Assembly: GCF_024343775.1 (NCBI RefSeq)
Contig: NZ_RJUF01000185.1
Span: 1 to 64,000, forward strand
DNA length: 64,000 nucleotides
Source of the DNA: Lacihabitans soyangensis
GTDB taxonomy: Bacteria > Bacteroidota > Bacteroidia > Cytophagales > Spirosomataceae
Direction of reading: 5' to 3'
Made by a program: the position numbers and the translations under genes. Below, in pieces: positions 20,300-32,327 of this stretch. The notes beneath the pieces are model-generated. The model did no database searches. It was not told the DNA's origin and worked only from the letters and a program-made list of their open reading frames with translations. Position 1 is the stretch's first letter. Each line of letters begins with the position of its first letter.

Positions 20300-21439
20300 T
20301 CAGTTCTGGTTTTGAGACTTTACCCATTCAATGATTATAGGATATAAGTCGGGGATAGTTTCTCCTTTACTCTTGTTGCTGTATAGGTCTTTTAACTCCT
20401 TGTAGAAATCAGAAAATCGATAATACTTCCTACGGTTCTCCATTAAAGAAATCCTTGCATTTTCTATAACTTTTTGATCTTCAGGGCCAAATTTATCCAT
20501 AGTATAAAGCAAGTAAACCGCATGAGTCATATACTCATTAAAAACTTTATAACCAGTACTATAATTACCTTGACCTGAATTCAACTTTAGCCATTTTGAC
20601 ATATTCTCACTACCCATAATGACATTCAAATCATCCTTAAACCTGTCGCTAACTGGGTTGACGTAATTGTGATCTATTTCGGTCATAATTATGCCCGTGT
20701 ATCTGCCTCGATTTTGTGCGGTATTTGTCTCATAATCTCTGGCATCTGCCACCCACATAACGCACTTTTTACCTCCTCTAGCATTAAACCTCCGTGTAAA
20801 ATGAACGCCTCCCATCAATGGACTCACCACAATATCATAAAAATCATATCTCGCAGGAAATTGCTCCTCCAACCATCTTTGTTGTTGATCAACTTCAGAG
20901 AAGGCTCTTACCTTTTCTAAATTTTGCTGATAATATTCAGAATGATCCTGGTAAAAACCCTCAAAGTTGGTTTCTTTGGCAAATCGAGTAAGATCTTTCC
21001 TTTTGATATTTTTGGAAATGCTGTATTGCAGTCTATGCATTAAAGGATATTTAAAATCTCTTCTAAATTTTCCCTTTCGCCATTCGGTATTATATGCCAA
21101 ATGGAGGTTGTGCCGATAAATATTGGCTGATTCCTTTAGCGATTTGTTGAGTTTCTGAACCAAGGGATGCGACCGATACTTACCAAAATAAGCCATAACA
21201 TCTTGATAATAAACGCCCTCTGAATCAATGAGTAGTTTATGAATATTTTCGTTACCCGCATAAATACTTGTGTCGGTAAGTGCAAACAAAATGTGCATCA
21301 GTTCATAGGACTCAGGGCAGGTATAAGTGGTGTTCAAATGCTTTACCGTAACCTCACCTTTTGAAGTTTGGCACGTACTTTTGTGAGAACTAAAAACAAA
21401 AAAAAGTAATACTGAGAACAATTTAAAAACACATTTCAT
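20300..21439 (-). CDS. DUF4932-like secreted protein (metallopeptidase-related)
   Basis: 379 residues with a signal peptide ending near residue 23. The region starting YELMHILFALTDTS matches my memory of the Bacteroidota DUF4932 family. A motif TEIDHNYVNP (E254, H257) sits where a zinc-peptidase HExxH would be expected, but Thr253 replaces the first histidine. It may be an inactive relative or use another ligand. It lies 23 bp downstream of a minus-strand membrane protein gene, so they may share a transcript. The family call is tentative. Confidence 0.6.
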   Translation of the reverse strand: MKCVFKLFSVLLFFVFSSHKSTCQTSKGEVTVKHLNTTYTCPESYELMHILFALTDTSIYAGNENIHKLLIDSEGVYYQDVMAYFGKYRSHPLVQKLNKSLKESANIYRHNLHLAYNTEWRKGKFRRDFKYPLMHRLQYSISKNIKRKDLTRFAKETNFEGFYQDHSEYYQQNLEKVRAFSEVDQQQRWLEEQFPARYDFYDIVVSPLMGGVHFTRRFNARGGKKCVMWVADARDYETNTAQNRGRYTGIIMTEIDHNYVNPVSDRFKDDLNVIMGSENMSKWLKLNSGQGNYSTGYKVFNEYMTHAVYLLYTMDKFGPEDQKVIENARISLMENRRKYYRFSDFYKELKDLYSNKSKGETIPDLYPIIIEWVKSQNQN

Positions 21440-22050: not shown

Positions 22051-22434
22051 GTTGATAGCAATGGTTTAAGAAGGTGATTTTGAATTATTGTGAAATATTA
22101 AAAGCAAAATCGAAATCTATGATAGTAAACGCACAAAAAATTTAAAAGAAGTTCAAACAAATAATTATTGAGAACAAGTTGGCCAACGAGATGACATTTT
22201 ATGAAGCGAGAATGTTTCCAATTAATTATAACCATGCCAAACTAGTTTATACAATAGAAGGAAGAATGATAATTAATTTTGAAAAAATAGCAGCCCTAAG
22301 TATTTCACTATACATTGTGATTGACTTTAACTCGAAAAATATTACTTTTCTACTATTTCTTTGTTGATTTTTAATTTTTTGAATGAAAAAAAAGTTAAAA
22401 ATATTTTTTGTCCTGAAAAAATATTTTCATTTAC
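22051..22434. other. AT-rich divergent intergenic region before the DAC operon
   Basis: 384 bp between a minus-strand membrane protein gene and the first ORF of the carbon-accumulation operon. It must hold two outward promoters. A 62-codon open frame here has no family resemblance and I treat it as chance. No RNA gene seen. Confidence 0.45.
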
Positions 22435-22821
22435 ATGCTGAAAAAGAACGCAAGATTGGAAAGATTTAAGAAAATATTGGTTTTATCGTTACTTTTTGTG
22501 CTAGGAATTGGCACTTTGAGTGGCTTTGCTACCAATTATTTTTCTGATTCAGAAGATTCAAATTCGCCAACTTATAACCAAAACAAAGAGGAACATCATC
22601 TAGATAAATTCATTTTGGCTGTGGCCGAAGTGGAAGAAATAGAGGAAGAAACAGGTGATGAAAAACATGACCTTTCCTATCTAATTCCTCTAGCTCAACA
22701 AAACTTCTTAAATTTCGTAGGTAGGAACGAAGTTCGCACCGTTCGAATTTCTTTTTCTTTATCGCACCGGTACACACGGAAATTATCCCTTGTTTATTTG
22801 TTTAGAAATATTCGAATTTGA
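22435..22821 (+). CDS. Small hypothetical protein at the head of the DAC operon
   Basis: 128 residues with a basic N-terminus and one hydrophobic segment (about 14-32, ILVLSLLFVLGIGTLSGFA). A strongly acidic middle follows (EVEEIEEETGDE), then a basic, Arg-rich C-terminus. It precedes dabA by 80 bp on the same strand. It could be a membrane-anchored accessory protein or a leader. I recognise no family. Confidence 0.55.
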   Translation: MLKKNARLERFKKILVLSLLFVLGIGTLSGFATNYFSDSEDSNSPTYNQNKEEHHLDKFILAVAEVEEIEEETGDEKHDLSYLIPLAQQNFLNFVGRNEVRTVRISFSLSHRYTRKLSLVYLFRNIRI

Positions 22822-22824
22822 GAG

Positions 22825-22860
22825 TAATGTAAAACAGGACCTCATGGCCTGACTACATTA
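22825..22860 (+). promoter_or_regulatory. Intercistronic hairpin before dabA
   Basis: TAATGTA pairs with TACATTA and, inside, CAGG pairs with CCTG, giving a two-part stem. It starts four bases after the stop of the small ORF and ends 41 bp before the dabA ATG. No T-run follows, so a processing, stability or attenuation role is more likely than simple termination. Confidence 0.5.
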
Positions 22861-22901
22861 AACGCTAACTATCTGTTAGACAAACTCTTAAATTTTGATA
22901 T

Positions 22902-25406
22902 ATGAATTCAAACCATCATATGGCTGGATTTGATGAACAACATTTGTTGCATCTATTACAGCATTATTTACCGGCACAAGCCCCATTGAAGGACTTTGTG
23001 CATCACAATACCTTGCATGGGTTTCAGCACTTGTCCTTCCCAGATGCATTGAGAACCGCAAGGACGATTTTCGGTTATAAAACTTCCTTATCTCTTGATG
23101 AATATCGGATTTTTTACTCCGAAGGAAAAATTTCCGAAAGTGCTATTTATCAAACCATTATAAAAGATAAAGGAGAAAACTATCTCGAATTTTGGTTAGA
23201 AAACCTCAAAAACAAGAACTTCGACAACGACACAGAGGCGAGAATAGGGGCTGTTAGAAACCATTGGAAAGAAGTCTATCAAATCGATTTAGACTCTATG
23301 GTTCAGCCGATTTTGTTTCGGCTTTTGTGTTCTTACCTGGACCAAGGCATAGCCATTTGGAGGTTTCCCTTGGAGAAAAAAGGCTTTCTCGAATCTGTAT
23401 ATGAACTCGAGAAAAACGGATTATTCTCGATATTTAAAACCGATAGAATCCGAAAATTATTTCTCTCGAAGGAATTCTCGCTTTCAGGCCTTTTGGAAAT
23501 GCTTGTTGGAGACGAAAGTCTTTACGAACAATATATATTTGACCAACAATTTTCGCATCAAGGATGGTCTGGAATGGTTTCGGTCATAGAGACACTCCCA
23601 GAAACATTGTTGGAAACTAGAAATATCTCTCTTCTAGATCTAATTAAGCTAGAATGTTTCTTAGAACTGGATGCCATAGAATCAAGAATGGGCAAAAAGT
23701 GGAAATCTATAGGTAAAAGTATTATCCATAAACCTATTTCATTGTTTTCAGAAGTCCCTCAAACAGAGTACTTTGAAACTTTAAATCTTTGGCAAAAGGC
23801 ATTTGAGTGGACTTATTACGAACCAGTTTTACATGGTCTGCAGGAAAACAAGAGAGAATACCAGACCCCACAAGCGTTCCAAAAAAGTTTCCAGGCCATG
23901 TTTTGTATCGATGATCGGGAATGCTCATACAGGAGATATCTTGAAGTTTTAGATTCCAAATGCGAAACTTTCGGCACACCTGGTTTTTTTGGTGTTGAGT
24001 TTTTCTTTAAACCCATTGAAGGGAAATTTTATACCAAAGTCTGTCCAGCACCTGTCACTCCCAAGTTTTTGATAAAAGAAGAGGGGAAGGAAAGAAAAAT
24101 GGAAGTAGACGCCCATTTCTCAAAACACAGCCACAATTTCATAAGTGGTTGGCTTATAGCCCAAACGCTTGGATTTTGGTCGGCTTTCAAACTTTTTCTG
24201 AATATTTTCAAGCCTTCCATGGGCCCAATGGTAAGCCATTCGTTCAAACACATGGACAGTGGCTCAAAATTATCCATCGAGCATGTAGGCGAATTTGAAA
24301 ATGACTTACAAGTAGGTTTCAAGATTGAAGAAATGGTGAACAGGGTGGAGAATGTTTTAAAAAGTATTGGTTTGGTGAAGGATTTTGCCCCACTTATTTA
24401 TGTAGTAGGTCATGGAGCGAGCAGTATCAATAATCCTCACTATGCAGCTTATGACTGCGGAGCGTGTTCGGGTCGTGCAGGATCTGTGAACGCTCGTGTT
24501 TTCTCAACCATGGCTAACAAAACAGAGGTTCGAGACCAGTTAGCATTGCGAGGTATTATAATTCCTGACGAAACTCGGTTTGTGGGAGCATTGAGAGATA
24601 CAACACGTGACGAAATCATGTTTTATGACATAGATACGCTTGACCATAATCATCAAACCTTACACAAAAACAACCTTACCAAGTTTGAAGAGGCCTCAAA
24701 AAGGAACTCTAAAGAGAGGTCAAGAAGGTTTGAGTCTATCAATACAGACTTGTCTATTGATGACATTCATAAAAAGATACTTCAACGCTCTGTTTCGCTA
24801 TTTGAGCCGCGTCCTGAGCTCAATCATGCCACCAATGCACTTTGTATTGTCGGAAAACGTGAACTTACAAAAGGTATTTTTCTAGACCGAAGGTCTTTCT
24901 TGAATTCTTATGATGCCAAAATTGACCCAGAGGGAAATCGACTATTGGGTATTTTGAATGCTGCCGTACCGGTTTGTGGTGGGATCAACTTGGAGTATTA
25001 TTTCTCAAGAGTAGATAATCAGAAACTAGGTGCTGGCTCCAAACTACCGCATAATGTGATGGGGCTTTTCGGGGTAGCCAACGGAATTGACGGTGATTTG
25101 CGACCTGGACTTCCCAATCAAATGATAGAAGTTCATGACCCAATTAGACTGTTGATGGTAATAGAGCAAAAGGCTGAAGTAGTGTTGGATGTAATAAAAA
25201 GAAATCCCGCTACCTATCAATGGATAGAAAACGGCTGGGTTTTGATAGCTACCATTGATCCTGTAAACTGTTCAATTTCGATTTTCGAAAATGGTGAAAT
25301 GGTGGAATATACTCCTCAGGATACTAAAATCGAGCAAATTACAGACTTAGGAAGCTTGGTAGAGAGTGGTATGGAAAATTTGGAAATTTATAAATATGAA
25401 GCTTGA
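22902..25406 (+). CDS. dabA: DabA, inorganic-carbon uptake subunit (DUF2309)
   Basis: Cytoplasmic, membrane-associated partner of DabB in the energy-coupled DAC system, thought to hydrate CO2 to bicarbonate in one direction. The 834 residues contain the beta-carbonic-anhydrase-like site: C335 and D337 in FCIDDREC, H504 in VGHGASS, and C519 in YDCGACSG. The spacing matches Halothiobacillus DabA (C351, D353, H524, C539), with the same 2-residue and 15-residue intervals. Its end overlaps or abuts the dabB start, implying translational coupling. Identification is strong. Confidence 0.95.
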   Translation: MNSNHHMAGFDEQHLLHLLQHYLPAQAPLKDFVHHNTLHGFQHLSFPDALRTARTIFGYKTSLSLDEYRIFYSEGKISESAIYQTIIKDKGENYLEFWLENLKNKNFDNDTEARIGAVRNHWKEVYQIDLDSMVQPILFRLLCSYLDQGIAIWRFPLEKKGFLESVYELEKNGLFSIFKTDRIRKLFLSKEFSLSGLLEMLVGDESLYEQYIFDQQFSHQGWSGMVSVIETLPETLLETRNISLLDLIKLECFLELDAIESRMGKKWKSIGKSIIHKPISLFSEVPQTEYFETLNLWQKAFEWTYYEPVLHGLQENKREYQTPQAFQKSFQAMFCIDDRECSYRRYLEVLDSKCETFGTPGFFGVEFFFKPIEGKFYTKVCPAPVTPKFLIKEEGKERKMEVDAHFSKHSHNFISGWLIAQTLGFWSAFKLFLNIFKPSMGPMVSHSFKHMDSGSKLSIEHVGEFENDLQVGFKIEEMVNRVENVLKSIGLVKDFAPLIYVVGHGASSINNPHYAAYDCGACSGRAGSVNARVFSTMANKTEVRDQLALRGIIIPDETRFVGALRDTTRDEIMFYDIDTLDHNHQTLHKNNLTKFEEASKRNSKERSRRFESINTDLSIDDIHKKILQRSVSLFEPRPELNHATNALCIVGKRELTKGIFLDRRSFLNSYDAKIDPEGNRLLGILNAAVPVCGGINLEYYFSRVDNQKLGAGSKLPHNVMGLFGVANGIDGDLRPGLPNQMIEVHDPIRLLMVIEQKAEVVLDVIKRNPATYQWIENGWVLIATIDPVNCSISIFENGEMVEYTPQDTKIEQITDLGSLVESGMENLEIYKYEA

Positions 25407-27276
25407 TATGGAATTAGTATTGCAGATTTTCATTCTAATCCCCCTATTTGGTTTCTTTTTGAGCCTTATCGTTCCAGAGACCAAAGAGGGATTTTTGTCG
25501 TGGATTGCTTTTGTAACTATCGGTATCCAGTTATTTCTAGCCATTGTTTATACTTTCGTTTGGCTTATCAAAGGAAGACCATCTGTTAATTTCAATACAG
25601 GAGATCTTTACCAAACAGAGGGTTATAGCTTCTTCTTGTCCTTTTATTTTGACAAAATCTCTGCCGCCTACTTATTGGTTGGAGGAATATTGGTCTCTTT
25701 GGTAACGAGGTTCAGCCGATACTATTTGCATAGAGAACCCGGCTATAAAAGGTTTTTCAATACGGTTTTGTTCTTTTATACAGGTTATAGCATTACCGTT
25801 TTGTCGGGTAATTTGGAAACGCTATTTGTTGGCTGGGAGATTTTGGGTATTTGTTCATTTCTACTTATTGCCTTTTACAGAAACCGTTATTTACCAGTTA
25901 AAAATGCGGTAAAAGTATTCTCCATTTACAGAATCGGCGACGTGGGTATCTTGTTGGCAATGTGGATGAGCCATCATCTGTGGCATGAAAACATCACCTT
26001 TCAAAAACTGAATAATTTTGAATTGGTGCATGAACATCTTCTGAGTCACTCTTCCACTGGCGTTTTTATAGCCATGATGCTTGTTTTAGCCGCGGCTGTA
26101 AAGTCAGCTCAATTGCCATTTTCGAGTTGGTTGCCCCGTGCCATGGAGGGTCCTACCCCATCAAGTGCCATTTTTTATGGCTCTTTGTCAGTGCATATTG
26201 GGGTGTTTTTGTTGCTTCGTACATTTCACTTTATTGAACAACAAACCTCTGTGAGGATTTTCATAGGCGTAATGGGATTAGTAACAAGTGTGGTAGCTAC
26301 CGGAATTGGAAGGGTACAGTCTTCTATAAAAAGCCAGATTGCTTACGGATCTATTGCTCAAATAGGGCTAATATTCATAGAAGTGGCCTTGGGTTTACAA
26401 AACCTAGCTCTTTTTCACTTTGCAGGAAATGCTTTTTTGCGTACTTATCAACTTTTGGTTTCGCCGTCTGTTGTTACTTACCTTATCAGAGAGCAATTTT
26501 ACAGATACTCACCGGATGATAAATCCATAGAGTCAAAATACCCAACAAAACTTGCTAACTCACTGTATATATTGTGTTTAAAAGAGTTCAATCTCGACAA
26601 TTTTATGTACAGTTACCTATGGAATCCAATGAAAGTACTTGGCAAAAAGATACATTTCTTAAGCCTGAATAAGCTCATTGCTTTCTTTGTGCCTGTGTAT
26701 TTACTGGGAATTGTTTTGTGGTTTTATCAGGCCAACTTTTCTGAAAAAATCATTCATATTCTGCCGATAGTTTTTTCAATTTTCGGTCTTTTGATGGTTT
26801 TAAAAGCCTTTACTGAAAGATTTAGAGCAAGAATGTCCTGGGTTTTGATTTTACTGAATCACGCTTGGGTAGCTCTGGCTATCTCTTTCAACGAGCATTT
26901 TAGCCTGAGCCATGTTTTCTTGTATTTAGGTGGCATTGTGATTATGGGTCTTTTGGGCTATTTTACTTTGCAAAGAATAAAAAACTTGGAGGGAAATATA
27001 GACCTCGACCGCTTTCATGGCCATGTTTATGAGCACCCAAGAATCGCCTTCGCATTTTTTATCGCCTGTTTGGGAGTGAGTGGATTTCCCATCACACCCT
27101 CATTTGTAGGTGAAGATTTGATTTTCTCTCACATTCACGAGGACCAAATTCTGCTGGCACTTCTGACTGCCTTGAGTCTAATAATGGATGGTCTGGCCAT
27201 CATCAGAATATTCGCTCGGGTGTTTTTCGGGCCTCATACCAAAACCTACCACGAGGTAGCTTATCGTTCGTCATAA
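25396..27276 (+). CDS. dabB: DabB, proton/cation-conducting membrane subunit (NuoL/MrpA-like)
   Basis: About 626 residues of mostly transmembrane helices, related to NADH dehydrogenase subunit 5. Antiporter-type features are present: WEILGICSFLLIAFY, KSAQLPFSSWLPRAMEGPTPSSAIFYG and the lysine/histidine residues of the channel. It couples cation flow to DabA. In-frame ATGs lie at 25366, 25396 and 25408; I prefer 25396 or 25408 because translation would then begin within or just past the dabA stop (25404-25406). The length is typical of DabB and shorter than NuoL. Confidence 0.92.
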   Translation: MKLDMELVLQIFILIPLFGFFLSLIVPETKEGFLSWIAFVTIGIQLFLAIVYTFVWLIKGRPSVNFNTGDLYQTEGYSFFLSFYFDKISAAYLLVGGILVSLVTRFSRYYLHREPGYKRFFNTVLFFYTGYSITVLSGNLETLFVGWEILGICSFLLIAFYRNRYLPVKNAVKVFSIYRIGDVGILLAMWMSHHLWHENITFQKLNNFELVHEHLLSHSSTGVFIAMMLVLAAAVKSAQLPFSSWLPRAMEGPTPSSAIFYGSLSVHIGVFLLLRTFHFIEQQTSVRIFIGVMGLVTSVVATGIGRVQSSIKSQIAYGSIAQIGLIFIEVALGLQNLALFHFAGNAFLRTYQLLVSPSVVTYLIREQFYRYSPDDKSIESKYPTKLANSLYILCLKEFNLDNFMYSYLWNPMKVLGKKIHFLSLNKLIAFFVPVYLLGIVLWFYQANFSEKIIHILPIVFSIFGLLMVLKAFTERFRARMSWVLILLNHAWVALAISFNEHFSLSHVFLYLGGIVIMGLLGYFTLQRIKNLEGNIDLDRFHGHVYEHPRIAFAFFIACLGVSGFPITPSFVGEDLIFSHIHEDQILLALLTALSLIMDGLAIIRIFARVFFGPHTKTYHEVAYRSS

Positions 27277-27308
27277 ATAATCGCCGAAAGGCATAAAAAA
27301 TAATTAAA

Positions 27309-28898
27309 ATGAATACAGAAAATAAAAAACTTAAAATTCCTTTAGACGGCTTGGCTGGACTTAAAGAGAACTTCTCAACCGACGCAATATCGGGTTTTAT
27401 CGTATTTTTACTTGCTTTACCGCTCAGTTTGGGTATAGCCAAAGCCTCAGAGTTTCCACCCATTATGGGTTTGGTTTCGGCCATTATAGGTGGTTTGGTG
27501 GTCAGCTTTTTTATGGGTTCAAGATTGACCATCAAAGGTCCTGCAGCTGGTTTGATAGTAATCGTCGCCGGAGCTGTAAATGAGTTTGGAGGTGGAGAAA
27601 CGGGCTGGCATTTGGCTCTAGGAGCTATGGTAGTCTCTGGAGTTATTCAGATATTGTTTGGTGTTTTTAAAATGGGCAAATTGGCGGACTTTTTTCCTCT
27701 TTCGGCCATCCACGGAATGTTAGCAGCCATTGGTATCATCATTATTGCCAAGCAAATACCCATATTGTTGGACATCAATCCTGCATTGCTCAAGGGTAAA
27801 GACCCGCTAGAATTGCTGGCCTCTATTCCTAACTTTGTAATGCACATGGATCCTAAAGCAACGTTGGTGGGTTTGGTGAGTTTCAGTATAATGATGATTT
27901 GGCCGCTTTTGGACAGTCCCATCAAAAAAATACCAGCTCCTCTGATGGTTTTAATGTTTGCTATCCCAGCCGAGCTGATGCTTGATTTCCAAACCACAGA
28001 GCCCGCTTATGCCTTGGTTCATATCGGTAATCTTTTGGAAAACATCAAAATAAATGTTGATTTTGGTGGATTTGCTCAAACGGGAGTTTTTATAAAATAT
28101 GTCATTATGTTTGCCCTAGTGGGTACTTTGGAGTCGCTTTTGACAGTTAAAGCTATTGACATGTTAGACCCTTTTAAGCGAAAATCAAATACCAACAAAG
28201 ACCTGATAGCCGTGGGTATAGGCAACACAATTTCAGCTATTTTGGGAGGTTTACCGATGATTTCAGAAGTGGCAAGGAGTTCGTCAAATGTAAATAACGG
28301 GGCCAAAACTCGTTGGGCCAATTTCTTTCATGGCTTCTTTATTCTGAGCTTTGTATTGTTGGCCTCGCACTTGATAGAGTTGATACCTAATACAGCACTA
28401 GCGGCTATGCTCATAACTGTAGGTATTAAATTAGCCCATCCACGTGAATTTATTCATACTTTCAAAATAGGCAAAGAGCAACTGGCCATTTTTTTGGTTA
28501 CGATTTTCTTTACTTTATTTGAAGACTTATTGGTAGGTATAGCAGCCGGTATGATCTTGAAATTAATCATTCATACTTATCATGGTGCTCCAATTTTGGC
28601 TCTTTTTAAAGCTCCAGTTGTAGTATCTTTTACTGACAATGAATATCTGGTTGAAATAGACAAAGCGGCTGTTTTTTCAAACTTTTTGGGCATTAAAAGC
28701 AAGCTGGAGGCCATTCCACCAGGTTTTAAAGTTATCATTGACCTCAAAAACACCAAACTCGTGGACCACTCCGTGATGGAGAGTCTTCATAATTTTGAGC
28801 ATGATTATACCGCACAGGGCGGCACTGTGTCTATAGTAGGCCATGAAGAACATCAGCCTGCTTCTAATCATGCCCTAGCAGCTCGATTTAAAAAATAA
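27309..28898 (+). CDS. SulP-family anion transporter with STAS domain
   Basis: 529 residues. The SulP membrane domain (about 25-430) opens with TDAISGFIVFLLALPLSLGIAKA and contains GSRLTIKGPAAGLIVI. A C-terminal STAS domain (about 440-525, VIIDLKNTKLVDHSVMESL) has a Ser in the loop that is phosphorylated in related regulators. SulP proteins carry sulfate, bicarbonate or other anions. Placement 32 bp after dabB suggests bicarbonate here, which is inference. Probable third structural gene of the DAC operon. Confidence 0.9.
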   Translation: MNTENKKLKIPLDGLAGLKENFSTDAISGFIVFLLALPLSLGIAKASEFPPIMGLVSAIIGGLVVSFFMGSRLTIKGPAAGLIVIVAGAVNEFGGGETGWHLALGAMVVSGVIQILFGVFKMGKLADFFPLSAIHGMLAAIGIIIIAKQIPILLDINPALLKGKDPLELLASIPNFVMHMDPKATLVGLVSFSIMMIWPLLDSPIKKIPAPLMVLMFAIPAELMLDFQTTEPAYALVHIGNLLENIKINVDFGGFAQTGVFIKYVIMFALVGTLESLLTVKAIDMLDPFKRKSNTNKDLIAVGIGNTISAILGGLPMISEVARSSSNVNNGAKTRWANFFHGFFILSFVLLASHLIELIPNTALAAMLITVGIKLAHPREFIHTFKIGKEQLAIFLVTIFFTLFEDLLVGIAAGMILKLIIHTYHGAPILALFKAPVVVSFTDNEYLVEIDKAAVFSNFLGIKSKLEAIPPGFKVIIDLKNTKLVDHSVMESLHNFEHDYTAQGGTVSIVGHEEHQPASNHALAARFKK

Positions 28899-28974
28899 TT
28901 CTCAAAAAAAACACTAATTTCGCCCTCATATTGAAAAAAGATGAGGTCGGAATTGGTGTGTAATCATAACAAAA

Positions 28975-29730
28975 ATGAAGAAAATAACGGTAATCTTTAC
29001 CGCCCTTCTAGGGCTTGTACTCAGCAATTCTTTTGCCCAAAAAAAAAGCCAAAACAACAATATTTGGCTGCATTATGTTGGCAAAAACAAAATAGCCAAA
29101 AAAACCTTTTTTACATTGGAAGCCACCATGCGATATGCCAATGGCTTTTCCGAAAAACAGCAATACTTTATAAGACCATCAATTGAATATCAAACAAATA
29201 AGCATCTGGCTTGGAGTGTCGGCTTTACTCACTACAACACTTTTGTTTATGGCAATCCTGCTCTAAATAAAAGGCCCATTCCTGAAAATCACATATGGAT
29301 TCAGGCAAATTTTACACACCAAATAGGAGATTTAAGAATTACGAATCGCCTACGTGATGAAAATCGCTGGGTGGGATTGGCAACAACAAATTCTACCACG
29401 GGTGAATTAGAAATCACTGATTACGCTTATCGTAATAGACTAAGGTACATGCCTCTTCTTACCTACCCAATCGTTAAAAAAGACAAAAAAACGCTCTTGA
29501 GTGCATTTGTAGGTGATGAGGCCTTTATAAATATTGGTAAAAAAGCCGGAGCTACTTTGTTCAATCAAAATAGAATTATTGCCGGTTTGGGGTACACATT
29601 ATCCAAGAGTAGTCAGGTACAGCTGAGTTTTATCCAGCAGCAAATCTGGAATTTTACGGATACCATAGAAGAAAGTAATCCTACCTTGCGTATTTCTTAC
29701 CTTTCCAATCTGGACTTTAGTAAACATTGA
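28975..29730 (+). CDS. DUF2490 outer-membrane beta-barrel protein
   Basis: 251 residues with a signal peptide (cleavage near NSFAQ). The mature part consists of alternating amphipathic strands (for example YFIRPSIEYQTN, LAWSVGFTHYNTF, LRYMPLLTYPI, VQLSFIQQQIWNF). DUF2490 proteins are predicted outer-membrane barrels. It lies 76 bp after the SulP gene, same strand, and is likely the last gene of the operon, possibly passing anions or small solutes across the outer membrane. Confidence 0.82.
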   Translation: MKKITVIFTALLGLVLSNSFAQKKSQNNNIWLHYVGKNKIAKKTFFTLEATMRYANGFSEKQQYFIRPSIEYQTNKHLAWSVGFTHYNTFVYGNPALNKRPIPENHIWIQANFTHQIGDLRITNRLRDENRWVGLATTNSTTGELEITDYAYRNRLRYMPLLTYPIVKKDKKTLLSAFVGDEAFINIGKKAGATLFNQNRIIAGLGYTLSKSSQVQLSFIQQQIWNFTDTIEESNPTLRISYLSNLDFSKH

Positions 29731-29739
29731 ATTTAAATT

Positions 29740-29770
29740 TTGAAGACCAGCGAAATTGGTTAGTCTTCAA
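29740..29770 (+). terminator. Stem-loop after the DAC operon
   Basis: TTGAAGAC pairs with GTCTTCAA and CCA pairs with TGG inside. It starts 10 bp after the DUF2490 stop but lacks a long T-run, so it may be a weak terminator or 3'-end protector. Confidence 0.5.
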
Positions 29771-29784
29771 TTCAAAAGATAAAA

Positions 29785-29853
29785 ACCTCTAAAACTCTCT
29801 TATTTAATCTTAGAAAGTTCTCTAATTTAAATATAAGCATGAGTTTTAGAGGT
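29785..29853. repeat. 69-bp near-palindromic hairpin element
   Basis: Perfect 13-bp terminal inverted repeats (ACCTCTAAAACTC / GAGTTTTAGAGGT) enclose 43 bp that also folds, with TTAGA/TCTAA and CTTATTTAA/TTAAATATAAG pairings. The whole unit can form one long hairpin. The rest of the gap (29854-30080) shows nothing recognisable. Confidence 0.65.
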
Positions 29854-30080: not shown

Positions 30081-32327
30081 TTACTTCACCTGATATTCGT
30101 CTTTGGGCCACATATCTGTATTAACATCTTTATTATCAAGAAGTTTACCATTCTGAACAACTTTCAAAGTGTTCAAGAAATTACTCATAATCACCTTGGC
30201 ATCGATATTAGCTCTTTTGTAAAAATCTAACGTAAAAGGATCATCAAATCTTTTGAGAATGGTTTCTCTATCAAAGTTAAGGGGAGATTCCGAGCCGATA
30301 AAAAGCGATTCCTGAATTTCGTAGACATACGGAAAAACCGCACCAAAACTATGTTTGATTCGTTCAGTCGGGGCCCAAGTGACCGCTATTCCCCTAGGTT
30401 TTAGTTTTGACTTCAGTAGACTGAAATATTCTACGGAATACAGATTTCCTGCAAAAGATGACCTAGGGCGGAGAGCATCGGCTTCCAGAACATCATACAA
30501 CATTTCAGAACTCTGAATATCCTTTCTTCCATCCTCCAACTTTAAGTTCAGCCTTTTGTCGTTCAAAATTAAATATGCCGAACTGTCTTTTGTTCGTTTT
30601 ACATATTCATAAAGCACATTAGGCTGGCTTTTTATGACTTCCCAACAAACAAGCTGTTTGGTGTTGGTCCTTCCCGAAGCTCCATAAAGTGTACCCGCTG
30701 ACCCTAGTCCTATGATACCAATTCGCTCAGGGTTTGGATGAACAAAGGCCGGAACAGCACCTAGCATGATATGGAAATAATCGGTTCGCATTGGAAAATG
30801 ACTTTGCCCTAGACCGTTTATAAATACCGTCGACTCCGTTTCTCCAATTTTGATGGAAGACAAGGCAGTCTTATCCTCACTGAAAATGAATTTAGACTCT
30901 TCCCTCATACCTGAAACTACTTTCCAAAATTCTTGCTTTCCTGGCACTAAAAGTACCAAAACCAATAAAAAAAGGCTCAACAATACAGGATAAAGCCAAT
31001 TAATCAATCTTTTATACCAAAGAATTCCTATATATAAAAACCCTGTAAGAATCAATAATTTAAGAGTAAGTGAGGTGCCTAATATTTCGAAACCTATCAA
31101 GGAAGCAAACCAAGCCCCCGCGGTAGAACCGGCAATATTGATAAACTGTAGAGAACCTAACTTTTTCCCGACCAAAGAAAAATCGTTTTGGATGATGTTC
31201 TGAGAAATACTAAAACTGAAACCCATTATAAAGGTGGGTACCGACATCAAAAACACCGGAATGATAAACATGGTGGTCATTCTTAGCTTAAAACTCGGGA
31301 TTTCATCATAGCCTTCAAAAAAACCTCTGAGCGGTTCAAGAAAGCCTAGATTTTCAATAGAAAGATAAAGAATAACCATACTCAAGGCCACATAGGTATA
31401 CAAAACCGTTTGAACTCGGAGAAAAGTTTTAAGTTTACCACTTTTATATTTCTTATTGTATAAAACGCCCAACCAGGTTCCAATAGCCATCGAACCCAAA
31501 TAAATGGTCAGAATTATGGAGAAAGTCACTGCATAAGACTTCATCATGACATCTATCATCCTAAACCAGATAATCTCGAATGATATGGCCGTAAAACCAG
31601 ATATAAAATACTGAATCAACCAAAATTTGAAAGGAACATTTAGTTCTTCTTCAATTACCTTATTTGAAGGCAATTCGTTCACATCTTGTTGATTTTCAGT
31701 ACTCTTCCCATACAAACCAAAGATGAGAACAGACAAACCACAAAAGAAATTTAAAGCAGCAGCAACATAAATGGCGTTTTCAAAACCCATTTTTGGTATT
31801 AAGTAAAACGAAGTAACCATGGTGCCTATTGCTGCCCCGAGGGTATTGGTAAAATAAAGAAGGCTTATGAAATTACCTTGATTTCCGATGTTTTTGAAAG
31901 CCTTCGAGAGTAAAGGAAGCGAAACACCCATCAAAAATGTTGGTATTAAAAGCAAAAGAAATAAGGTAAGGTACAAGTAAATAGAACCCAACTGAAAGCT
32001 GCTATTGGCCACAAACATCCAATCATAGAAAAGGATTTTGCTAAAAAGAGCAAATACGCCGATGCCCACCTCAGCGGCGAAAAAATACAAGATGTGTTTG
32101 CCTTGTTTCAGGCGGTCAGAAAGATACCCACCAACCAAGTAGCCAATTCCTAAACCTGCCATAAATGCAGAGACTATCAAACTAATGTTGACCGAACTTA
32201 TACCTGTAAAAAAAGCTAGCCACCTTTGCCAAATAACCTGATAAACGAGAGCCGCGAAGCCCGAGAAAAAATAAATTGAAATTAAAAACAGGGATGTAAA
32301 ACTTTTACTTTTGGGAATATTATTCAT
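30081..32327 (-). CDS. MFS-like membrane protein fused to a spermidine-synthase-like domain
   Basis: 748 residues. About residues 1-460 hold 12 or more hydrophobic helices in two blocks starting FFSGFAALVYQVIWQRWLAFFTG and FISGFTAISFEIIWFRMIDV. These two openings resemble each other, suggesting internal duplication. Residues 480-748 form a Rossmann methyltransferase/spermidine-synthase fold with IGIIGLGSAGTLYGA and VCWEVIK. The aminopropyl-transfer acidic motifs of SpeE are not obvious, so polyamine synthesis is doubtful. Such fusions are common in bacteria but uncharacterised. Single gene. Confidence 0.82.
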   Translation of the reverse strand: MNNIPKSKSFTSLFLISIYFFSGFAALVYQVIWQRWLAFFTGISSVNISLIVSAFMAGLGIGYLVGGYLSDRLKQGKHILYFFAAEVGIGVFALFSKILFYDWMFVANSSFQLGSIYLYLTLFLLLLIPTFLMGVSLPLLSKAFKNIGNQGNFISLLYFTNTLGAAIGTMVTSFYLIPKMGFENAIYVAAALNFFCGLSVLIFGLYGKSTENQQDVNELPSNKVIEEELNVPFKFWLIQYFISGFTAISFEIIWFRMIDVMMKSYAVTFSIILTIYLGSMAIGTWLGVLYNKKYKSGKLKTFLRVQTVLYTYVALSMVILYLSIENLGFLEPLRGFFEGYDEIPSFKLRMTTMFIIPVFLMSVPTFIMGFSFSISQNIIQNDFSLVGKKLGSLQFINIAGSTAGAWFASLIGFEILGTSLTLKLLILTGFLYIGILWYKRLINWLYPVLLSLFLLVLVLLVPGKQEFWKVVSGMREESKFIFSEDKTALSSIKIGETESTVFINGLGQSHFPMRTDYFHIMLGAVPAFVHPNPERIGIIGLGSAGTLYGASGRTNTKQLVCWEVIKSQPNVLYEYVKRTKDSSAYLILNDKRLNLKLEDGRKDIQSSEMLYDVLEADALRPRSSFAGNLYSVEYFSLLKSKLKPRGIAVTWAPTERIKHSFGAVFPYVYEIQESLFIGSESPLNFDRETILKRFDDPFTLDFYKRANIDAKVIMSNFLNTLKVVQNGKLLDNKDVNTDMWPKDEYQVK

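Follow-up and report, generated by a model that had tools for sequence, protein, structure and literature searches.

The first 64,000 nucleotides of contig NZ_RJUF01000185.1 of Lacihabitans soyangensis (RefSeq assembly GCF_024343775.1; this whole stretch is called the window below) contain dabA and dabB, which encode a DAB accumulation complex (DAC) for inorganic carbon, in one row with genes for a SulP-type anion transporter, an outer-membrane beta-barrel of family DUF2490 and a small exported protein, here called SML. The question raised by this locus is what such an assembly is for in a bacterium that probably does not grow by fixing carbon dioxide. The answer favoured here, as probable rather than certain, is that it is a dissolved-inorganic-carbon uptake operon, in which DabAB, a bicarbonate-carrying SulP and the barrel together feed the carboxylases of a probably heterotrophic member of the Bacteroidota.

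Lacihabitans is a genus of the Spirosomaceae. The host genome (5.65 Mb in 198 contigs, 99.9% complete) contains one DabA and two SulP genes. It has a phosphoenolpyruvate (PEP) carboxylase, and a search for the RuBisCO large subunit, which took in neither other autotrophic pathways nor further classes of carbonic anhydrase (CA) beside the beta class, found no match in it, so that the operon is taken to belong to a probable heterotroph. The sequence-only reading of the window had seen no sign of autotrophy there; as regards the RuBisCO large subunit, this now holds genome-wide.

The DabAB pair

According to the sequence-only reading, a small gene heads a row in which dabA and dabB adjoin, SulP follows after 32 bp and the DUF2490 gene after a further 76 bp. 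The open reading frames (ORFs) agree with this throughout: five of them, all on the forward strand, lie within 22435-29730 (Table 1), with 80 bp between SML and dabA. The dabB ORF is listed as 25366-27276, in which an ATG at 25396 or 25408 is the likelier start, so that the start of dabB overlaps or abuts the stop of dabA. Since dabA, dabB, SulP and DUF2490 are found together again in relatives, as described below, the operon is more than a chance arrangement.

DabA of the window matches family PF10070 and has the Cys, Asp-x-Arg, His, Cys active site of a DAC. On alignment, its C335, D337, R339, H504 and C519 fall on C351, D353, R355, H524 and C539 of DabA2 (PDB 9rd0), which are the zinc ligands and the Asp-Arg dyad as assigned in the available part of PMC13144422; the four residues named beforehand from the window (C335, D337, H504 and C519) were all right. 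The product of the adjoining dabB matches DabB2 (chain 9rd0_B) with an E value of 1.1e-30 and is the NuoL/Mrp-like partner that a DAC has.

Of the 222 genomes of the host's family, 105 have PF10070, as do 30 of the 392 genomes sampled from the phylum. From the 104 other family genomes, 64 that spread over the genera were chosen; wide flanks were collected for these and for all 28 matches outside the family, and 17 further loci were added from named contigs. This gave, with the window, 112 loci with a scorable DabA, which are related to one another rather than independent; L052 and L057, on contigs shared with L036 and L035, were left out of all counts, and L167, a DabA fragment of 145 bits, out of the class tables. 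DabA was assigned to class A or class B by a score under or over 400 bits, which gave 26 class A and 86 class B loci, and a midpoint-rooted FastTree tree then agreed with this division, in that all 83 of 83 full-length class B sequences form one clade with a support of 0.93. The tree set consisted of these 83 sequences, 26 of class A and four from other phyla; three class B loci in which DabA is cut or internally shortened (L055, L094 and L100) were left out of the alignment (83/86 used).

All 113 aligned sequences retain the zinc ligands and the Asp, and 112 retain the Arg (83/83 and 82/83, respectively, for full-length class B). Against class B, the DabA of the window has identities of 42-77%, its closest relatives among the named contigs, those of Lacihabitans sp. 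CCS-44 and CS3-21, standing at 77%; for class A the values are 24-28%, and for the four others 24-26%. The gene order is dabA-dabB in 83 of the 86 class B loci, the remaining three being cut, and dabB-dabA both in 26/26 class A loci and in four plasmid records from other phyla. The system is therefore like the DAB2 complex of chemolithoautotrophs (9rd0; available part of PMC13144422) in its five active-site residues, its NuoL-like DabB and the adjacency of the two genes, and unlike it in the low identity of its DabA to class A and other-phylum sequences, in the order dabA-dabB, in the linked SulP and barrel, and in a host without RuBisCO match.

A reduced form of the pair was seen in two class B loci of one genus, g8 (L094 in genome G059 and L100 in G095), where DabA is shortened to 517-532 residues, with its ends kept and the zinc-site middle gone, and adjoins a shortened DabB of 317 residues beside Aminotran_5 and XdhC genes. 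Comparison of the two loci gives ratios of nonsynonymous to synonymous substitution rates (dN/dS) of 0.20 and 0.14, and a non-catalytic mini-DabAB thus seems to be kept there. In g8, which we take to be Dyadobacter-like, 11 genomes have an N-terminal piece of PF10070 and 10 of these a C-terminal piece as well; one genome, G061, has an internal stop.

Linkage to a SulP carrier and to outer-membrane barrels

In 49 of the 86 class B loci a SulP gene is present in the interval from -3.8 to +9 kb around dabA, in 45 of them on the same strand; in the stretch fetched for the 26 class A loci of the phylum, SulP, the listed barrels, beta-CA and the small gene were found in none. SulP stands directly 3' of dabB in 30 class B loci and directly 5' of dabA in 7, and in others a barrel or a beta-CA gene intervenes between SulP and dabAB. 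Among the contigs with this linkage are some that bear the names Lacihabitans, Flavobacteriales, Crocinitomicaceae, Chitinophagaceae and Saprospiraceae. When the family genomes are searched for a SulP at least 70% identical to that of the window, 54 of the 222 have one; 47 of these 54 have DabA too, and in 39 of the 47 the two lie within 6 kb of each other. The sequence-only reading had staked its case on SulP and DUF2490 not proving unlinked in related genomes: for SulP the linkage recurs across the phylum, and for DUF2490 the outcome is mixed. The five-gene module that it described exists in the window, and the exact set recurs, by hidden Markov model (HMM) calls, in only 6/86 class B loci with the window included; it is one arrangement among several.

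A fuller inorganic-carbon cluster, with beta-CA in one gene run with SulP and dabAB, occurs in 7 of the 86 class B loci (L043, L044, L046, L047, L049, L067 and L164). An ArsR-like regulator gene, recognised by eye, lies directly 5' of dabA in L093, L098, L101, L104, L105 and L180, none of which shows SulP.

The SulP of the operon has the Sulfate_transp domain (PF00916); its STAS match lies under the Pfam cut-off (E 0.078), its C-terminus aligns with the chains 5da0 and 9iar up to residue 511-512, and the architecture was counted as Sulfate_transp followed by STAS. The model used to find SulP was seeded from dabAB-linked genes, yet it also recovers CA-linked SulP. In a tree of 52 SulP sequences, from which ORFs of at most 480 residues were left out, clade I (n = 8) holds the CA-linked SulP of the host and clade II (n = 44) the SulP of the operon, and both clades occur beside dabAB; L077 was left out of alignment A2. 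Glu275 and Arg323 are common to all 52 sequences, and the residues aligned with them in chains 7lhv (plant) and 9iar (human) are likewise Glu and Arg. The position three residues N-terminal of Arg323 is occupied by Glu320 in 44/44 members of clade II and by Val in 8/8 members of clade I. A long form of SulP, of 736-773 residues with about 200 extra C-terminal residues, is found in L037, L039, L050, L161 and L162; the extension has no Pfam match in the two examined, L050 and L162.

The last gene of the operon encodes a member of DUF2490 (PF10677, 142.4 bits against a cut-off of 29.8), a family that corresponds to the putative porins of Transporter Classification (TC) 1.B.81 and for which PMC4827864 lists no established function. 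The AlphaFold model is an 11-strand barrel with a mean predicted local-distance difference test score (pLDDT) of 82.9, and the porins AlgE, NanC and Omp32 are among its best Foldseek matches, AlgE and NanC ranking first, at low template-modelling scores of 0.21-0.51 and 9-14% identity.

A recognised barrel, from DUF2490, from OprB or from an unnamed porin family, stands beside SulP in 26 of the 49 SulP-bearing class B loci, and none is in range in the 37 loci without SulP, where other barrels may have been missed, as the OprB and unnamed-porin models were seeded from SulP-adjacent genes. Members of the unnamed family have no Pfam match (L053, L102, L037 and L210) and no PDB match (L053), and fall below the cut-off of 150 bits, with 34 and 58.9 bits, for the NCBIfam selenite-operon porin ExtI. 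With three families filling the same place, a barrel that is always DUF2490 is ruled out, and the fixed partnership with DUF2490 that had been proposed from the window gives way; the host, moreover, has seven matches to this family, six of them over cut-off.

In L162, SulP and DUF2490 lie together on the strand opposite to dabAB; in L040 and L102, a porin comes after SulP, upstream of dabA; and the unnamed porin, recognised by eye, comes also after an alpha-CA gene (L208), after a stand-alone SulP (L210) and after the small gene alone (L199). From these placements the pore appears to be a partner of the carrier rather than of DabAB. In L037 and L050 a porin lies outside the counted range, near their distant SulP.

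Table 1. Features of the operon, with positions in the window
Feature	Position	Strand	Basis
Possible Bacteroidota-type promoter (TTG, 20 bp, TATTTTTTG)	22379..22410	+	24 bp 5' of first gene
SML, small exported protein, 128 residues	22435..22821	+	ORF; relatives in equivalent place; dN/dS
dabA, class B, 834 residues, zinc site intact	22902..25406	+	PF10070 E 2.5e-218; alignment
dabB, NuoL/MrpA-like membrane subunit	25396..27276	+	Proton_antipo_M E 8e-43; DabB2 match
SulP anion transporter, clade II, 529 residues (E275, E320, R323)	27309..28898	+	Sulfate_transp E 1.2e-61
DUF2490 outer-membrane beta-barrel, 251 residues	28975..29730	+	PF10677 E 1.7e-41; AlphaFold; Foldseek

The promoter candidate in Table 1 is weak: it matches only a relaxed pattern, in AT-rich surroundings, of what we take to be the Bacteroidota promoter consensus, TAnnTTTG. 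The operon is flanked on the reverse strand by a gene for a DUF4932 protein (20300-21439) and by a gene (30081-32327) in which a membrane part like that of the major facilitator superfamily is fused to a spermine-synthase-like domain.

SML, the product of the first gene

SML has a hydrophobic, signal-peptide-like N-terminus, an acidic middle and the C-terminal residues LFRNIRI, and no Pfam or NCBIfam model matches it over cut-off; AlphaFold predicts it poorly (mean pLDDT 54), with the N-terminal helix alone confident. Relatives at the operon head have about 104-132 residues and C-termini such as LFRNIRI, LYCSLKLHC or IRCIKI. When profiles were made with the whole blastp cluster removed, 20 of 33 held-out members were found at E <= 0.001 among 5449 ORFs and 13 were missed, and the SML of the window scored E 2.9e-5, all scores to which shared composition may contribute. 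Nine of 13 pairs have a dN/dS of 0.16-0.53, one pair, in which dS is nearly saturated, has 0.10, and in three the ratio is undefined, so that SML looks translated and under purifying selection; it is a selected, fast-evolving exported protein.

SML heads 36 of the 86 class B loci by HMM calls, 35 of these being training rows, and SML-like ORFs were recognised by eye in nine more (L044, L047, L077, L148, L158, L159, L161, L165 and L166); L046, L049, L164 and L181 have candidate ORFs of 119-138 residues in the same place. L035 and L036 would need a start codon other than ATG, and in L040 an SML-like ORF (E 0.002) heads SulP. In the window genome the SML of the operon is the sole match at E <= 0.001, the second having an E value of 0.017, and across the family SML occurs in at least 57 of the 222 genomes, a lower bound, as at most 20 candidates per genome were scored.

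Outside dabAB, 20 further SML places were fetched and their neighbours read. In L191, L192, L193, L197, L200, L201, L202, L203 and L207, SML is followed by parts of a resistance-nodulation-division (RND) efflux system, recognised by Pfam in L191 and L201 (HlyD, ACR_tran and OEP, three proteins) and by eye in the rest. Elsewhere it is followed by SulP-CA (L205 and L206) or SulP (L210), both by HMM, by a porin (L199, by eye), by alpha-CA (L208) or by a barrel receptor (L204, and L209 by eye), and at four places (L194, L195, L196 and L198) the neighbours gave no clear picture. Such company rules out both a role of SML as a DAC subunit and a specificity for inorganic carbon, and its earlier assignment to the DAC module had to be withdrawn. 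SML is a general companion of cross-envelope transport operons, and may serve envelope assembly or operon regulation rather than carbon chemistry. In L208 (G131), a relative of SML, the alpha-CA gene (PF00194) and an unnamed porin (by eye) stand in a row, in a genome that has class A dabB-dabA.

Proposed function and its alternatives

In the proposed mechanism DabAB, as a divergent class B DAC, would couple an ion gradient to the one-way hydration of cytoplasmic CO2 to bicarbonate, by analogy with what has been proposed for DAB2 (PMC13144422). SulP would carry bicarbonate itself over the inner membrane, by way of a transport site in which Glu275 and Arg323 probably lie, and such uptake would be useful at high pH and low CO2. 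The DUF2490 barrel would pass the anion through the outer membrane and so be the entry for SulP; an anion pore makes sense here, since gaseous CO2 needs none. The bicarbonate would then supply carboxylases, PEP carboxylase among them, at times of low CO2, so that the physiological role would be anaplerotic. We infer bicarbonate as the substrate of SulP from the company of DAC, beta-CA and alpha-CA in which its genes are found.

Several observations weigh against this proposal. The SulP scores 130.6 bits with the NCBIfam BicA model, for which the cut-off is 880, and so falls outside that family, and it is no closer to BicA than to other SulP proteins (84 bits to 6ki1, 80 to 9iar, 77 to 5da0 and 74 to 7lhv, which we take to be BicA, SLC26A11, SLC26Dg and SULTR4;1). 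It has Glu275 for Asp, and Glu320 and Val321 for Ala-Thr, at the aligned sites which we take to hold the substrate and Na+ residues of BicA. From this unlikeness in score and residues it follows that its coupling is probably as in other SulP proteins. In 37 of the 86 class B loci there is no SulP in range; 8 of these are truncated by a contig end and 2 (L037 and L050) have a SulP about 7 kb upstream, which leaves 27 with full flanks and none, so that DabAB can stand without SulP. Eight family genomes carry SulP away from DabA, clearly so in G048, where it is on another long contig, at about 10 kb in G169, and for the rest mostly on short or broken contigs, and in 7 of the 54 genomes DabA gives no match. 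No recognised barrel is present in 23 of the 49 SulP loci, and DUF2490 has 7 matches in the host genome, 6 of them over cut-off, so that, taken together, the family serves other purposes too. The host, finally, already has a beta-CA (PF00484, one gene) beside its second SulP on another contig, C4, which contradicts the supposition that DabAB were its only inorganic-carbon genes.

Part of this evidence would suit an operon in which DabAB is the sole inorganic-carbon device and SulP a carrier of sulfate or another anion that is needed under the same conditions: the Glu275/Arg323 pair is as in 7lhv and 9iar, a BicA-like site is absent, and SulP is out of range in the 37 loci just described. Such a division of labour is nevertheless unlikely, because dabAB is linked to SulP of two clades, one of which includes the beta-CA-adjacent member of the host, and because the linkage outlasts reordering, with SulP before dabAB, after it, or set apart from it by a porin or CA gene. 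SulP proteins include exchangers, so that one may also imagine a SulP that works outward or as an exchanger, balancing charge, acid or excess bicarbonate made by DabAB, in an operon for internal pH or membrane potential. According to the available part of PMC6689103, mpsAB was first known for membrane-potential generation, which speaks for such a role, but it also complements CA-deficient Escherichia coli, and the outer-membrane barrel and the co-occurring CA fit uptake better; an outward or exchanging SulP is accordingly judged quite improbable. Least credible, and very improbable by our estimate, is that the genes are mere neighbours without joint function: order and membership do vary, and relatives of the small gene head unrelated operons, but SulP is near dabA in 49 of the 86 loci of class B and in none of the 26 of class A, on contigs that range from Lacihabitans to Flavobacteriales, Crocinitomicaceae, Chitinophagaceae and Saprospiraceae.

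Uptake of dissolved inorganic carbon thus remains the preferred function. A wider proposal, for which confidence falls somewhat short of even, is that the operon is an envelope-spanning module that evolved in Bacteroidota which do not fix CO2 for growth, combining a DAC clade of their own for CO2, a SulP clade dedicated to bicarbonate and recognisable by Glu320 close to Arg323 of the anion site, and a SulP-matched anion porin drawn from three barrel families.

With the SulP-CA bicarbonate carriers, for which Felce and Saier (2004) is reportedly the reference, and with BicA (6ki1), the SulP of the operon shares its fold, and the host has a SulP-beta-CA pair elsewhere in its genome; it differs from the CA type in its clade, with Glu320 in place of Val, and from BicA in the aligned residues. 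With MpsAB of Staphylococcus aureus (available parts of PMC6689103 and PMC8552792) the operon shares the presence of a DAC in a heterotroph, for ordinary carboxylation; in those parts a CA gene is said to be able to adjoin mpsAB in some Firmicutes (PMC8552792), and SulP or outer-membrane genes are not mentioned. Anaplerotic uptake of inorganic carbon has been proposed for Schleiferia thermophila, of the Bacteroidetes, the genome of which likewise has PEP carboxylase and carbonic anhydrase, along with a putative bicarbonate transporter (PMC4148732, available part); that part of the text names a Na-dependent transporter and proteorhodopsin, and not a DAC.

A DAC in a heterotroph, SulP as an inorganic-carbon tool, CA beside a Firmicutes DAC and anaplerotic uptake in Bacteroidetes are hence already in print (PMC10880623, PMC8552792 and PMC4148732, available parts), in a literature that, as far as these sources go, treats DACs mainly in autotrophs and Firmicutes. 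A literature search, which was not exhaustive and from which absence from print is not claimed, gave no title or abstract start on dabAB-SulP linkage; within the literature searched, what seems to be new is class B as a distinct clade, the linkage of its genes to two clades of SulP, and the pairing of barrels with SulP. If the proposal is true, it shows how heterotrophic Bacteroidota secure bicarbonate for carboxylation at low CO2. It would then also offer a clean system in which to ask whether CO2 pumps and bicarbonate carriers act as a pair, and would hint at what the porins so far labelled no further than DUF2490 may do.

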